A DNA stretch of 64,000 bases from positions 496,001 to 560,000 of the forward strand of contig NZ_QXFK01000019.1 in NCBI RefSeq assembly GCF_003581645.1. The letters run 5' to 3'. The notes under the pieces are model-generated. The model made no database searches, had not been told where the DNA came from, and saw only the letters and a program-made list of their open reading frames with translations. Origin of the DNA: Pelagerythrobacter aerophilus. GTDB taxonomy: Bacteria > Pseudomonadota > Alphaproteobacteria > Sphingomonadales > Sphingomonadaceae. This document shows positions 14,987 through 19,846 of the stretch, piece by piece; position 1 is the first letter of the stretch; every line of letters begins with the position of its first letter. The position numbers and the translations under genes are program-made.

Positions 14987-17029
14987 ATGGATTTCAGAAC
15001 CGGGGACGATGCGGCGATGGGACTCGATCAGACGGATGGCGTGACGCTCGAGGGTGACGAAACCCCGGCAGACGCCAAGCCCGGGAAGGCGGCGATGAAG
15101 ATGGACAAGTCGGACAAGGGCAGCGAGCAGCTCGTCGCGGAAAAGGCGGGCGAGGCGATCGCCGGCGCCATGGCCGAAGCGGCCAAGGCCTCTGCCGAGC
15201 AGCACGATTCGAAGAAGATCCTCGACCGCCGGTTCGACATTACGATCGACGAATCGCGCGATGCGCTGCTGACCGAATTCGGCAAGGAAACGCTGGTCGA
15301 CCGCTACCTGCTGCCGGGCGAGAAGTTCCAGGACCTGTTCGCGCGCGTCGCCGATGCCTATGCCGACGATCAGGACCACGCGCAGCGGCTCTACGACTAT
15401 ATCTCGAAGCTGTGGTTCATGCCGGCGACGCCGGTGCTGTCGAACGGCGGCACCAACCGCGGCCTGCCGATCTCCTGCTACCTCAACTCGGTCGAGGACA
15501 GCCTGGAAGGGATCGTCGGCACCTGGAACGAGAACGTCTGGCTCGCCAGCCGCGGCGGCGGGATCGGCACCTACTGGGGCCAGGTGCGCGGGATCGGGGA
15601 GCCGGTCGGCCTCAACGGCAAGACCAGCGGCATCATCCCGTTCGTGCGGGTGATGGACAGCCTGACGCTGGCGATCAGCCAGGGCTCGCTGCGGCGCGGC
15701 TCGGCCGCCTGCTACATCGACATCTCGCACCCGGAGATCGAGGAATTCCTCGAGATCCGCAAACCTTCTGGCGACTTCAACCGCAAGGCGCTGAACCTGC
15801 ACCACGGCGTGCTGGTGAGCGACGAGTTCATGGAAGCGGTGCGCGCCGGCGAGACCTTCGATCTCGTCTCCCCGCGCGACGGCAGCGTGCGCAAGACGAT
15901 CGACGCGCGCAGCCTGTTCCAGAAGCTGGTCGAGACGCGGCTTGCCACCGGCGAGCCCTACATCGTCTTCTCCGACACGGTGAACCGGATGATGCCCAAG
16001 CATCACCGCGAGCTGGGCCTCAAGGTCTCGACCTCGAACCTGTGCTCGGAAATCACTCTGCCGACCGGCCGCGATCATCTCGGCAACGATCGCACGGCGG
16101 TCTGCTGCCTGTCCTCGCTCAACCTGGAAAAGTGGGAAGAGTGGGAAGGCGACAAGCTCTTCATCGAGGACGTGATGCGTTTCCTCGACAACGTGCTGCA
16201 GGACTATATCGACCGCGCGCCGCCGGAAATGGCGCGGGCGAAGTATTCGGCCATGCGCGAACGCAGCGTCGGCATGGGCGTGATGGGCTTCCACTCCTTC
16301 CTTCAGTCGAAGGGCATCGGCTTCGAAAGCCCGATGGCGAAAGTGTGGAACCTCAAGATGTTCAAGCACGTCAACGCCAAGGCCAACGAGGCCTCGATGA
16401 TGCTGGCGAAAGAGCGCGGCCCCTGCCCCGATGCCGAGGACATGGGGGCGATGGAGCGCTTCTCCTGCAAGATGGCGATCGCGCCGACCGCGTCGATCTC
16501 GATCATCTGCGGCGGCACGAGCGCCTGCATCGAGCCGATCCCGGCGAACATCTACACGCACAAGACCCTGTCGGGCTCGTTCGTGGTCAAGAACCCCTAT
16601 CTCGAGAAGATCCTGCGCGAGAAGTCGAAGGATTCGACCAACGTGTGGAACTCGATCCTCGAGCGCGGCGGCTCGGTCCAGCACCTCGACTTCCTGACAC
16701 CGGAGGAAAAGGCGACCTTCAAGACCAGCTTCGAGATCGACCAGCGCTGGCTGCTCGAATTCGCGGCCGACCGCACGCCCTATATCGACCAGGCGCAGAG
16801 CCTGAACCTGTTCATCCCGGCCGACGTCGACAAGTGGGACCTGATGATGCTCCACTTCCAGGCGTGGGAGAAGGGCATCAAGTCGCTCTACTACCTGCGG
16901 TCGAAGTCCGTGCAGCGCGCCGGCTTCGCCGGCGGCGTCGAGGCCGACAACACCGCGGAGGCGGCGAAATACGAGCTCATGGCCGGCGGCGAGCAAACCG
17001 ACTACGAGGAATGCCTGGCCTGCCAGTGA
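14987..17029 (+). CDS. nrdA: Class I ribonucleoside-diphosphate reductase, alpha (large) subunit
   Basis: Catalytic subunit reducing ribonucleotides to deoxyribonucleotides. The 680-residue protein shows the active-site triad block NLCSE near residue 351, redox cysteines in ISCYLNS (about 164) and AVCCLSSLN (about 372), and the C-terminal shuttle pair CLACQ at the very end. There is no N-terminal ATP-cone; instead about 70 residues of charged, low-complexity sequence precede the barrel, so dATP inhibition through a cone is not expected. Its partner nrdB lies 1.75 kb downstream rather than adjacent. The ATG at 14987 follows GGGTGGGG. Confidence 0.93.
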   Translation: MDFRTGDDAAMGLDQTDGVTLEGDETPADAKPGKAAMKMDKSDKGSEQLVAEKAGEAIAGAMAEAAKASAEQHDSKKILDRRFDITIDESRDALLTEFGKETLVDRYLLPGEKFQDLFARVADAYADDQDHAQRLYDYISKLWFMPATPVLSNGGTNRGLPISCYLNSVEDSLEGIVGTWNENVWLASRGGGIGTYWGQVRGIGEPVGLNGKTSGIIPFVRVMDSLTLAISQGSLRRGSAACYIDISHPEIEEFLEIRKPSGDFNRKALNLHHGVLVSDEFMEAVRAGETFDLVSPRDGSVRKTIDARSLFQKLVETRLATGEPYIVFSDTVNRMMPKHHRELGLKVSTSNLCSEITLPTGRDHLGNDRTAVCCLSSLNLEKWEEWEGDKLFIEDVMRFLDNVLQDYIDRAPPEMARAKYSAMRERSVGMGVMGFHSFLQSKGIGFESPMAKVWNLKMFKHVNAKANEASMMLAKERGPCPDAEDMGAMERFSCKMAIAPTASISIICGGTSACIEPIPANIYTHKTLSGSFVVKNPYLEKILREKSKDSTNVWNSILERGGSVQHLDFLTPEEKATFKTSFEIDQRWLLEFAADRTPYIDQAQSLNLFIPADVDKWDLMMLHFQAWEKGIKSLYYLRSKSVQRAGFAGGVEADNTAEAAKYELMAGGEQTDYEECLACQ

Positions 17030-17036
17030 ACCTTGT

Positions 17037-17089
17037 CCCTCTCCCACCGGGAGAGGGAGGGAGCGCCGCAGGCGCGGAAGGGTGAGGGC
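17037..17089 (+). repeat. Palindromic repeat, left copy (flanks DUF559 gene)
   Basis: Double-hairpin element of 53 bp. A perfect 9-bp stem CCCTCTCCC/GGGAGAGGG with a 3-nt loop is followed by AGGG, a second hairpin GCGCC/GGCGC, and the end sequence AGGGTGAGGGC. An inverted copy with the same two ends lies at 17472-17531. This copy begins 8 bp after the nrdA stop and ends 7 bp before the DUF559 start. Confidence 0.8.
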
Positions 17090-17096
17090 CCGCGGT

Positions 17097-17459
17097 ATGA
17101 AGATCTACCGCGACGCCCCTTCCGGCGCGGTCGATCGAGCCCGCCGCCTGCGCCGTGACATGACCGATGCGGAGCGGCTGCTCTGGCGAGGCTTGCGGAA
17201 AGCCTTTCCGGAGGCAAAGTTTCGTCGGCAGGCCCCGATGGGCCCCTACATCGCCGATTTCCTGACCTTCCAGCACAGGCTCGTGATCGAAGTCGACGGC
17301 GGCCAGCACACCGAAGCGCTCGAAGCCGATGCTCACCGAACCCGTTACATCGAAGGGGAGGGTTTCCGCGTGATCCGCTTCTGGAACAGCGAAGTGATGG
17401 ACAACCTCGACGGCGTGCTCGATACGATAGCGTCGCATCTCGACGGGAGGCCTGCATGA
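17097..17459 (+). CDS. DUF559 (Vsr-like) endonuclease domain protein
   Basis: Small protein of 120 residues made of a single DUF559 domain, a branch of the PD-(D/E)xK nucleases related to very-short-patch repair endonucleases. Probable catalytic residues are Asp54 in YIADF and Glu65/Asp67 in VIEVDGGQH, followed by the typical GFRVIRFWNSEV strand. The N-terminal ARRLRRDMTDAERLLWRGLR is the usual start of the family. The ATG at 17097 is used; the in-frame GTG at 17082 lies inside the repeat. Inverted palindromic repeats frame the gene tightly on both sides. Biological role of free-standing DUF559 proteins is not established. Confidence 0.85.
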   Translation: MKIYRDAPSGAVDRARRLRRDMTDAERLLWRGLRKAFPEAKFRRQAPMGPYIADFLTFQHRLVIEVDGGQHTEALEADAHRTRYIEGEGFRVIRFWNSEVMDNLDGVLDTIASHLDGRPA

Positions 17460-17800
17460 TACCTCGCATCCGCCCTCACCCTCCCACGCCGCTGCGCGGC
17501 GCGGGCCCCTCCCTCTCCCGGTGGGAGAGGGGTGCGGTCGTCGCCATCCTGCTTGCCGCCCTCTCGGCCTGCGCGTCGCAAGTCGACGCGGGCGTGTCGC
17601 AGGACCCGGGCGCGCCGGGCTTCCTCTGGGGGCTGTGGCACGGGTTCGTCTTCCCGTTCGCCTGGATCGGCTCGCTGTTCGATCCGGAGATCGCGGTCTA
17701 TGCCGTGCCCAACCGCGGCGGGTGGTACGATTTCGGGTTCTTCCTCGGGATCACCGTGCTGGGCGGCGGGTCGTGGTTCGGCTCGAGGTCGCGCAAGTAA
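17456..17800 (+). CDS. Probable lipoprotein whose N-terminus is encoded by a palindromic repeat
   Basis: Protein of 114 residues. The signal region VVAILLAALSACAS ends in a lipobox (LSAC). The mature part GFLWGLWHGFVFPFAWIGSL and GGWYDFGFFLGITVLGG is recognisable as a small conserved family of unknown function. The first 25 residues (MIPRIRPHPPTPLRG and onward) are a direct translation of the palindromic repeat at 17472-17531, and the start overlaps the DUF559 stop (ATGA). No other in-frame start precedes the signal peptide, so the repeat seems to have replaced the original 5' end. Confidence 0.65.
   Translation: MIPRIRPHPPTPLRGAGPSLSRWERGAVVAILLAALSACASQVDAGVSQDPGAPGFLWGLWHGFVFPFAWIGSLFDPEIAVYAVPNRGGWYDFGFFLGITVLGGGSWFGSRSRK
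17472..17531 (-). repeat. Palindromic repeat, right (inverted) copy
   Basis: Inverted counterpart of 17037-17089. Read on the minus strand it has CCCTCTCCC/GGGAGAGGG (9-bp stem, 3-nt loop), AGGG, a longer GC-rich second hairpin, then AGGGTGAGGGC. The two copies share their ends and first hairpin exactly and differ in the second hairpin. It lies in frame within the 5' end of the lipoprotein gene. Confidence 0.8.
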
Positions 17801-17816
17801 GGCCCGAATAGCAGAA

Positions 17817-17845
17817 CCCCGGCCGCCAAGGATGGCGAACCGGGG
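17817..17845. terminator. Hairpin between convergent genes
   Basis: CCCCGG/CCGGGG enclosing CGCC/GGCG with a 6-nt loop, located between the convergent lipoprotein and DUF2171 genes. There is no T-run, so it may act as a weak bidirectional terminator. Confidence 0.45.
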
Positions 17846-17891
17846 CTCTTCGCTGCTGCCGTTGCCGGCGCAGCGGATCGCTGCCCATCCG

Positions 17892-18131
17892 TCAGGCGGT
17901 CGCGGCGTTCGTGCCCAGCCCCGCCGGGATGCGCGCCGTCTCCTTCAGATAGATGCGGTTGTCGTCGATCTTCTCGATATCGTCGATCGCGAGGAAGTGG
18001 TGGATGTCGTCGGCGCTGTCCGACCTGGTCAGCTTGATCGCATCGTCCTCCACTTCGTCGACCGTGCCAATGTGCTGGCCCTTGCAGTCGGCGACTTCCA
18101 TGTGCTCCTTGATACGCATCTTCTCGAACAT
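17892..18131 (-). CDS. DUF2171 domain protein
   Basis: Cytoplasmic protein of 79 residues with a PRC-barrel-like DUF2171 domain: MRIKEHMEVADCKGQHIGTV, then VEDDAIKLTRSD and HHFLAIDDIEKID. Relatives are common in sphingomonads and rhizobia, often stress-induced; molecular function is unknown. Start at 18131 is supported by GAAAGGAGAG just upstream. An EcfG-type promoter lies 36 nt before the start codon. Confidence 0.85.
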   Translation of the reverse strand: MFEKMRIKEHMEVADCKGQHIGTVDEVEDDAIKLTRSDSADDIHHFLAIDDIEKIDDNRIYLKETARIPAGLGTNAATA

Positions 18132-18166
18132 GATCGCTCTCCTTTCGGTTGGCTTTACACTTTGCC

Positions 18167-18192
18167 AACGGAGCGCGGCGCCGGCCCGTTCC
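18167..18192 (-). promoter_or_regulatory. EcfG-type general stress promoter for the DUF2171 gene
   Basis: On the minus strand the sequence reads GGAAC, 17 nt, CGTT, an exact match to the GGAAC-N16/17-CGTT consensus of the alphaproteobacterial general stress sigma factor EcfG. The -10 element is 36 nt from the start codon at 18131. Confidence 0.7.
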
Positions 18193-18238
18193 GTCGTTGA
18201 GCGCACGCGAGGAACGGTTCGTTCGAGATGCCGCGGGA

Positions 18239-18544: not shown

Positions 18545-18739
18545 GGGGCCGCCCCCGGTTATCCCCACCCTATCGCCCGCGCCCGTTTTGGCGTGCCCGG
18601 CGGCGGGCATAGTGTCGTTCGCCTGACGCGCGCGCCGGGGGAGCGATTCGCGGGTGCGGGGCCTTGCCGCCTCGCGCGGTCCGCCCTTCGCAAAGATCCC
18701 TCCCGGCGCCCGCAAACCGATTCACATACCCGCCCCGAT

Positions 18740-18755
18740 ACGCTATATATTGGGG
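18740..18755 (+). promoter_or_regulatory. Candidate NrdR box upstream of nrdB
   Basis: ACGCTATATATTGGGG matches 12 of 16 positions of the NrdR consensus ACACTATATATAGTGT and stands out as AT-rich in a GC-rich context. It lies 24 bp before the nrdB start, where a repressor would cover the promoter. A clear second box at the usual three-turn spacing is not seen. Confidence 0.5.
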
Positions 18756-18778
18756 CCAACGCCAACCGGAGACGCCAG

Positions 18779-19846
18779 ATGTCCCTTCTCGAAGCCCGCA
18801 AGACCTACAAGCCGTTCGAATACCCGTGGGCTTACGACTTCTGGAAGCGCCAGCAGCAGATCCACTGGATGCCCGAGGAAGTGCCGCTGGGCGAGGACTG
18901 CCGCGACTGGGCGCAGAAGCTCTCCGAGCACGAGCGCAACCTGCTCACCCAGATCTTCCGCTTCTTCACCCAGGCCGACGTCGAGGTGCAGGATTGCTAC
19001 CACGACAAGTACGGCCGCGTGTTCAAGCCGACCGAGATCAAGATGATGCTCGCCGCCTTCTCCAACATGGAGACGGTGCACATCGCCGCCTATTCGCACC
19101 TGCTCGACACGATCGGCATGCCCGAAAGCGAATACGGCATGTTCCTCGAATACGAGGAGATGAAGAACAAGCACGACTACCTGCAGCAGTTCGGGGTCGA
19201 CAGCGACGAGGACATCGCCCGCACCCTGGCGATGTTCGGCGGCTTCACCGAGGGGCTGCAGCTCTTCGCCAGCTTCGCCATGCTGATGAACTTCCCGCGC
19301 TTCAACAAGATGAAGGGCATGGGCCAGATCGTCAGCTGGTCGGTCCGCGACGAGAGCCTGCACTGCGAAGGCATCACCCGCCTGTTCCACGCCTTCGTGC
19401 AGGAACGCGACTGCCTGACCAAGGCGGTCAAGGAAGACATCATGGACATGTGCCAGAAGACGGTGCGGCTGGAGGATGCCTTCATCGACCTCGCGTTCGA
19501 GCAGGGCCCGGTCCCGGGGATGACGGCGAAGGAAATCAAGCACTACATCCGCTACATCGCCGACTGGCGCCTGGGCCAGCTCGGCCTCCAGCCGATCTAC
19601 ATGGTCGAGGACCACCCGCTCCCCTGGCTCGCCCCGCTGCTCAACGGCGTGGAGCACGCCAACTTCTTCGAAACCCGCGCGACCGAGTATTCGAAGGGCG
19701 CGACCAAGGGCAACTGGCAGGACGTCTGGTCGAGCTTCGACAAGCGCCAGAAGGCGAAGAAGGGCGAAGAAGCGAACGACCTCGGGGACGAGGGGCCGGG
19801 GCTGTTCGGGGATGGCGGCGAGAGCGGGAGCGTGGCGGCGGAGTGA
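18779..19846 (+). CDS. nrdB: Class I ribonucleoside-diphosphate reductase, beta (small) subunit
   Basis: Radical-generating subunit for NrdA, 355 residues. The di-iron and tyrosyl-radical signature ExxHxxxY is present as Glu98, His101 and Tyr105 in METVHIAAYSH. The remaining ligands are in FTQADVEVQD and in the late SVRDESLHCEG. Presence of the tyrosine argues for a tyrosyl-radical enzyme (class Ia-like) rather than a Tyr-lacking subclass. Separated from nrdA by the DUF559 unit and small genes. The stop overlaps the start of the next gene (GTGA). Confidence 0.94.
   Translation: MSLLEARKTYKPFEYPWAYDFWKRQQQIHWMPEEVPLGEDCRDWAQKLSEHERNLLTQIFRFFTQADVEVQDCYHDKYGRVFKPTEIKMMLAAFSNMETVHIAAYSHLLDTIGMPESEYGMFLEYEEMKNKHDYLQQFGVDSDEDIARTLAMFGGFTEGLQLFASFAMLMNFPRFNKMKGMGQIVSWSVRDESLHCEGITRLFHAFVQERDCLTKAVKEDIMDMCQKTVRLEDAFIDLAFEQGPVPGMTAKEIKHYIRYIADWRLGQLGLQPIYMVEDHPLPWLAPLLNGVEHANFFETRATEYSKGATKGNWQDVWSSFDKRQKAKKGEEANDLGDEGPGLFGDGGESGSVAAE

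Follow-up and report, generated by a model that had tools for sequence, protein, structure and literature searches.

In REP/REPIN-RAYT systems (REPtrons), a gene lies between two inverted palindromes, inverted pairs of the repeat are dispersed, repeat and protein co-vary and orthologues stay in place, according to the available text of the reports that describe them (PMC2817692; PMC3116915). In repeats known as box C, PIT or the intrastrand triplex motif (TM), a purine tract follows a pyrimidine-purine hairpin, and inverted pairs sometimes occur (PMC4666352); in the accessible parts of that paper, Holder et al. (2015) report that TMECO sites have no mobility gene nearby, and neither “DUF” nor “ycjD” appears in its main text. 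YcjD/DUF559 proteins are predicted PD-(D/E)XK nucleases related to Vsr (PMC1189080), and one DUF559 gene has already been classed under EDxHD (PMC9403480), as far as the available sections of these sources go. The Caulobacter DUF559 protein VsrA is, in the excerpts available, the reported cause of an SOS response in cells without cytosine methylase (PMC12907096), so DNA seems to be an in vivo target of some DUF559 members. DUF559 is still a Pfam family of unknown function. No paper linking DUF559 to these repeats was found within the searchable text of the open-access PMC literature, and a repeat association is not mentioned in the accessible portions of the literature on the family. Linking DUF559 and hairpin repeats gives each a testable partner. 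Here we describe a DUF559 gene between hairpin repeats in a window of 64,000 nucleotides from Pelagerythrobacter aerophilus, together with DUF559 loci from relatives, from a phylum sample and from named genomes. Coupling between the nuclease and the repeats is well supported, and the best reading is an element that resembles REP/RAYT but has as its enzyme an unrelated nuclease of the Vsr fold, similar to homing endonucleases.

The nrdA-nrdB interval of Pelagerythrobacter aerophilus

The original prediction described a 363-bp DUF559 gene enclosed by two inverted double-hairpin repeats of 53 and 60 bp that share their outer hairpin and inner end, and coordinates, Pfam matches and folding agree with this description. 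The gene (17097-17459, forward strand; Pfam PF04480, E 1.3e-37) runs from ATG to TGA and encodes a YcjD-like nuclease of the Vsr/EDxHD fold with 120 aa. Pairwise arm comparison and DNA folding place the left repeat (53 bp) at 17037-17089 on the forward strand; the right repeat (60 bp) occupies 17472-17531 and has the layout of the left repeat on the opposite strand, with its purine tract toward the gene. From the outside inward, a 9-bp pyrimidine-purine hairpin comes first, a second hairpin follows, and the purine tract GGGTGAGGG(C) closes the repeat on the gene side. The outer hairpin of the left repeat is CCCTCTCCC-ACC-GGGAGAGGG (17037-17057), and its inner hairpin (approximately 17063-17075) is followed by the gene-facing purine tract GGGTGAGGG. 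The outer arms (17037-17061 and 17507-17531) are 100% complementary over 25 nt and the inner ends (17071-17089 and 17472-17490) 89% complementary over 19 nt. Both arms fold as DNA into double hairpins (z -3.28 and -3.19), with a second loop of ~22-29 nt that itself folds. The gaps predicted between repeats and gene, 7 bp on the left and 12 bp on the right, are exact. With 0.03 copies expected, the window contains two copies of the outer hairpin, and a search of the 3,653,105-base genome with up to two mismatches returned a total of two copies, both at the cassette.

The left neighbour of the cassette is nrdA (14987-17029, forward strand; ribonucleotide reductase large subunit; Pfam PF02867 and PF00317), and the next conserved gene to the right is nrdB (18725-19846, forward strand; small subunit; PF00268). 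The unit was said to lie between these normally adjacent genes: Pfam bears out flanking by both, and near adjacency is found in some relatives, where the nrdB match starts 62 bp (L120) and 43 bp (L127) past nrdA, but in the window two further ORFs from the ORF list precede nrdB. One is lipoprotein-like (17456-17800, forward strand), a label that reflects a by-eye judgement of its N-terminal part, and it has no family in Pfam or NCBIfam; the other is on the minus strand (17892-18206). At 17456-17531, an N-terminal extension of the lipoprotein-like ORF is encoded by the right repeat, and the corresponding ORF in two relatives (G004 and G006) begins without the repeat. A search for defence genes with PADLOC returned weak matches only, the best at E 0.0013.

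In the window protein, Pfam finds DUF559 alone above cut-off, with MTES_1575 below threshold. In Foldseek, the structures matched by its AlphaFold2 model (pLDDT 91.9) are 3hrl (NGO0050), 3r3p (the homing endonuclease I-Bth0305I; E 4.8e-4) and, less closely, 1vsr (Vsr; 0.045), and sequence profiles agree for the first two (hmmsearch; 3hrl E 2e-35, 3r3p E 1.3e-4). In alignment A4, residues E26, D54, E65, H71 and D78 are nearly invariant, D67 is invariant and G68 is also conserved or nearly so. The protein has a Vsr-type catalytic domain in which the conserved E, D, H and D residues probably serve in catalysis. It belongs to the YcjD/DUF559 family (PF04480; 3hrl, NGO0050) and has a fold in common, and related sequence, with EDxHD homing endonucleases (I-Bth0305I) and Vsr. 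Unlike EDxHD homing endonucleases, it consists of one short domain in an intergenic hairpin cassette, not in an intron or intein, and has gene-less cassette relatives elsewhere.

The REPtron traits listed above have counterparts in the DUF559 family, dispersed copies for some cassettes and not for others. In contrast to REPtrons, the enzyme is by Pfam and fold a Vsr-fold DUF559 nuclease and not an IS200/IS605-type (Y1, Transposase_17) tyrosine transposase, the left repeat and its edges (17030-17096) contain no GTAG tag, and in the window repeats a third purine tract accompanies the pyrimidine-purine hairpins. Dispersed copies are usual in the DUF559 family (median 39), but the window hairpin has two copies and the L003 type described below has four. 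The DUF559 cassette works like REP/RAYT but is not a member, having neither a tyrosine transposase nor a GTAG tag. The window arms show the triplex-motif pattern of a pyrimidine-purine hairpin and a third purine tract, triplex formation being putative. Most inverted repeats that frame DUF559 genes are hairpins like the intrastrand triplex motif or box C, with TM-form arms at, for example, L012 and L280. The loop limit of 1-6 nt given for the TM search in the available text (PMC4666352) accommodates L012 and L280 but not the second loop of the window arms.

Five DUF559 matches (L001-L005) occur in the same genome. L001, L002 and L003 are each framed by inverted hairpins of their own distinct sequence, and L004 and L005 are of a weaker DUF559 type without such framing. 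The L003-type hairpin has 4 copies, all its own, and 38 copies of the L002 type were counted. L004 and L005 are identical in score and over the searched sequence stretch; they are located on separate contigs, their motif is degenerate and hairpins are absent, and a redundant contig is possible (assembly contamination 4.71%). In the L004-type clade, which has no hairpins, the motif is degenerate in two aligned members and close members have common neighbours. An unassigned ORF of 116 aa on contig C10 (L296, 1188-1538) lies amid four copies of the L002-type hairpin (type B), which encode its C-terminal end.

Inverted framing across the DUF559 family

The 300-bp flanks of DUF559 domains were compared for inverted similarity at a local score threshold of 16; the score captures inverted similarity and not hairpin type, and a few passing loci (e.g., L086) have another repeat. 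In the first set of 59 genomes (the own genome and 58 relatives), inverted repeats were found at 68 of 93 loci and at none of 179 offset controls; 15 matches weaker than ~1e-14 were left out (two more fall in loci already included), and the proportion may be slightly high because five of the 15 (G005:C10, G020, G031:1001519, G006:2409302 and G011:C2) are full length but weak, like the repeat-less clade. The phylum sample gave inverted repeats at 49/69 loci and 2/132 offset controls, with the highest control at 32 (L147); G082, G145 and G188 in this sample also belong to the family of the window genome, and the sample omits G101:C1448:40624, G177:C4:105354, G129:C1:2233132-2233445 and G082:C1:288055 as well as matches weaker than ~1e-5. 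In the named-genome set, which leans to intact proteins because it was fetched by active-site patterns (80 kept of 432), 66/79 loci and 1/151 offset controls passed, and the passing loci include Desulfobacterales, Chloroflexi, Nitrospirae, Omnitrophota and others.

With two named-set loci that duplicate others removed, the pool holds 241 distinct DUF559 loci, 238 of them testable, 182 with inverted repeats and 56 without; pooled offset controls were framed in 3 of 462 cases. Inverted framing of DUF559 genes is general and extends across phyla, and the excess of flanking repeats that the original prediction called for is present (182/238 against ~1% of controls). Inner hairpins can be oriented on both sides in 118 of 243 loci, 102 of which have the two purine tracts directed toward the gene (34/38, 31/36 and 37/44 by set); bilateral hairpins occur at one of 463 control positions. 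Inverted repeats accompany an intact D, E, D, H motif in 175 of 215 loci as against 7 of the 23 other loci (Fisher p 9e-7, which is indicative only because the loci are related). Among plasmid-borne loci, 9 of the 12 fetched from 45 records pass, including three from Deinococcus and two from Pseudanabaena; three other cyanobacterial loci fail.

Dispersed hairpins and their match to DUF559 flanks

Hairpin numbers in 150 genomes of the phylum were obtained with a generic pattern, the reversed pattern serving as control. Genomes with a strong DUF559 match (n = 30) have a median of 39 hairpins and the others (n = 120) a median of 0 (Mann-Whitney p 2e-15); 46 genomes have any DUF559 match, and the 16 with a best match weaker than 1.1e-16 were counted among those without. 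Five or more hairpins occur in 25/30 genomes with strong DUF559 matches versus 8/120 others, and contrasts within nine mixed families are positive in eight cases and tied in one, with no negative case. Two exceptions are hairpin-rich and have no strong DUF559 match (118 hairpins in G197 and 74 in G112); there the gene may have been lost, the assembly may be incomplete or a different enzyme may be involved. The reversed control occurs 0-2 times in most hairpin-rich DUF559 genomes (exceptions are G161 with 13 and G127 with 7), and in G076, G107 and G183 it is similarly frequent as the hairpin pattern.

Agreement in trans was assessed in 10 genomes other than that of the window, with 112 distinct hairpins among those listed and 28 DUF559 loci. 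Similarity between the listed dispersed hairpins and the DUF559 flanks of the genome in which they occur was higher than in any of 20,000 permutations. After row and column centring, own flanks rank first in 7 of the 10 genomes and second, third and fourth in the remainder; uncentred, they rank first in five, second in four and last in G101, one of whose DUF559 genes was left out. Exact matches among the listed hairpins number 11 to own flanks versus 6 to the flanks of the nine other genomes together. Because hairpins beside DUF559 genes were excluded, the match in trans is not local linkage, and descent common to genome and repeats remains in the figure. Genomes with DUF559 usually have many dispersed hairpins, which tend to match their own DUF559 flanks. 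Protein and repeat similarity are correlated (Mantel r 0.38), as linkage and common descent can produce.

The type-B hairpin occurs in 25-37 copies in five own-genus genomes with a type-B DUF559 gene and in 3 and 10 copies in two own-genus genomes with no type-B gene among those fetched (one weak match each was left out). Elsewhere, G008, from another genus and with a type-B gene, has only 6 copies, and up to 19 copies occur in genera in which no type-B gene was seen, so this link is not absolute.

Gene-less hairpin pairs and sites without the element

Dispersed hairpins are often paired ~40-140 bp apart. At least 14 pairs occur in G109 among 35 of its 36 listed hairpins (73 in the genome), at 99-136 bp start to start. 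In the own genome, one such pair, L132 (1500-1624), forms a single long hairpin when folded (z -7.8). Its two different ends recur on either side of DUF559 in L043, L023, L042 and L046 (82-95% identity), and one end only recurs in L002, L019 and L014. Terminal repeats are common to gene-bearing and gene-less copies, as for MITEs and transposons, and L132 looks as would be expected of a shortened DUF559 cassette. The L132 pair is present in G000-G003, has one hairpin left in G004 and is absent from G005 and G006.

Sites without the element were found at the nrdA slot, at the L132 pair and on Deinococcus plasmids. Given these sites and the large excess of inverted repeats at DUF559 genes, neither of the two outcomes named beforehand as counting against the original prediction, a lack of repeat excess or a unit fixed in all relatives, was observed. 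DUF559 was found in 3 of 30 loci examined at the nrdA slot. Within the genus, the cassette is present in the own genome and in G002 (where the DUF559 match covers model positions 1-78 only), and a cassette whose repeats are related to these but not the same occurs in G008, a member of another genus. In G004 only the left repeat is present and another gene pair follows it, and G006 has that pair without a repeat; G001, G003 and G005 have no DUF559, and hairpin tracts precede the lipoprotein-like ORF in G001. Because the slot varies in several ways (G004, G006 and G001), it is not a pure insertion contrast. The two-gene pair that occupies the DUF559 slot just past nrdA in G004 and G006 (L100 and L102) is presumably DUF4160/DUF2442. 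In Deinococcus proteolyticus, the stop codon of plasmid-borne hpaE overlaps the start of an oxidoreductase gene, and Deinococcus sp. NW-56 has a DUF559 cassette between the two. Genes for hydroxyphenylacetate/phenylacetate catabolism surround the cassettes on Deinococcus plasmids (L328, L329 and L330), and the positions of the cassettes differ between two related clusters. No target-site duplication was seen at the nrdA slot, the L132 hairpin-pair site or the Deinococcus site, where the divergence of the element-less sites could hide one.

Pairs of loci with inverted repeats have both neighbours in common in 11/12 cases at 90% protein identity or above and in 10/11 at 80-90%. At 70-80% identity both neighbours are in common in 13/22 pairs and none in 9/22, and at 60-70% the respective counts are 25/139 and 111/139. 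Movement, if any, is slow, since close pairs hold position and neighbours diverge at 70-80% identity; RAYT orthologues are likewise reported to hold position in the available text of PMC2817692. Frequent recent transposition is not supported, given the neighbour conservation of close pairs. The original prediction is borne out in part: its RAYT analogy draws support from the excess of inverted repeats, the dispersed matching hairpins and the element-less sites, but movement itself is something that we infer, with nearly all of the closest pairs in place, and the window hairpin has no dispersed copies.

Proposed mechanism and alternative explanations

The window unit is probably a hairpin-nuclease-hairpin element, that is, a coupled nuclease-repeat element acting in trans, in which a Vsr-fold DUF559 nuclease is cognate to the flanking hairpin. 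The cognate DNA of DUF559 would be a pyrimidine-purine hairpin followed by a gene-facing purine tract. DUF559 may cleave such hairpins: the nuclease could recognise extruded or single-stranded hairpins and nick the adjacent DNA, and the repeat would then be spread or restored in a homing-like manner, through repair or through copying of a further hairpin copy. Gene-less hairpin pairs would be non-autonomous derivatives like REPINs or MITEs, single hairpins would be what remains after deletion between two copies, and the window unit would represent a member present in one copy and passed on mainly by vertical descent. We consider it an even call whether the nuclease spreads the repeats, which would make DUF559 and triplex-motif hairpins a widespread selfish element that is convergent with REP/RAYT and has a Vsr-fold, homing-endonuclease-like driver. 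Movement of the repeats by the nuclease would suggest that the REP/RAYT lifestyle arose more than once, with unrelated enzymes. It would also supply the enzyme behind box C/TM repeats, the origin of which has been open, and imply that a nuclease of 120 residues is able to spread dispersed palindromes with no transposase involved.

A less likely explanation is that the nuclease is a housekeeping partner that polices hairpins from another process. Extruded hairpins or triplexes would be cut and then repaired or kept uniform, and the gene would stay beside its substrate for autoregulation and not as an agent of spread. The Vsr-like fold of DUF559 suits this role, as do the SOS effect of Caulobacter VsrA without cytosine methylase in the available account (PMC12907096), the vertical inheritance of close DUF559 pairs and the collapse in G004 of a hairpin pair, of which one hairpin is left. 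Policing alone leaves unexplained the gene-less pairs that have both ends of a DUF559 cassette and the equal gene-facing polarity of both hairpins.

It is quite improbable that the hairpins recombine or move by machinery of another kind and that DUF559 is chance cargo captured between them. Near-palindromic copies would be direct and inverted repeats of each other, which should make recombination easy, and the L296 ORF (1188-1538) of the own genome also lies between hairpin copies. When neighbouring ORFs of the three sets were treated alike, however, only 6 of 674 were framed, against 182 of 238 DUF559 genes; all six lie within ~250 bp of the DUF559 domain and so have an intergenic region in common with it. 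Hairpin number also tracks DUF559 presence, and dispersed hairpins match own flanks in trans, both of which speak against passive cargo.

There is very little likelihood that the repeats are regulatory hairpins, terminators or attenuators that insulate a small foreign gene. Stable hairpins do lie near both gene ends, but no T-run terminator was found in 16900-17900, none of the six loci searched matched an Rfam family, and such a role predicts neither dispersed copies nor a match to own flanks. Chance or composition, by which GC-rich genomes would yield such hairpins anywhere, is rejected by three control sets and has a negligible probability: the repeats are GC-rich, and reversed control and hairpin reach comparable numbers in a few genomes (G076 34 against 13, G107 23 against 30), but controls in tested loci were framed in 3/462 cases, the reversed pattern occurs 0-2 times in most hairpin-rich DUF559 genomes and the window has two copies versus 0.03 expected.

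ycjD of Escherichia coli and plasmid-borne loci

Escherichia coli fits a coupled nuclease-repeat element only in part, because its triplex-motif copies lie on a single side of ycjD: in K-12 and strain 2021CK-01784 they occur at or beyond the 3′ end of the gene and none was seen upstream (inverted-repeat score 9). Of 5426 genomes, 3362 match the ycjD region over at least 80% of the query. Three other genomes (L303, L304 and L307) were considered as clean empty sites for ycjD and rejected, since they hold TetR and RND efflux genes by fabI, which represents a locus swap. E. coli ETEC6 (NZ_CP041627.1, 1404669-1406233) has an IS1-like element within the ycjD region. On cyanobacterial plasmids, DUF559 lies near DUF1156 or PglX methylase genes in L332, L333 and L334, where inverted hairpins are weak or absent. 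On plasmid pPg_02 of Pseudanabaena galeata (L339, 1201-1503), DUF559 and inverted hairpins are in frame inside a long annotated protein, in an intein-like position, and the frame continues into a DPACGSG stretch, which we take to be a DNA methylase motif.
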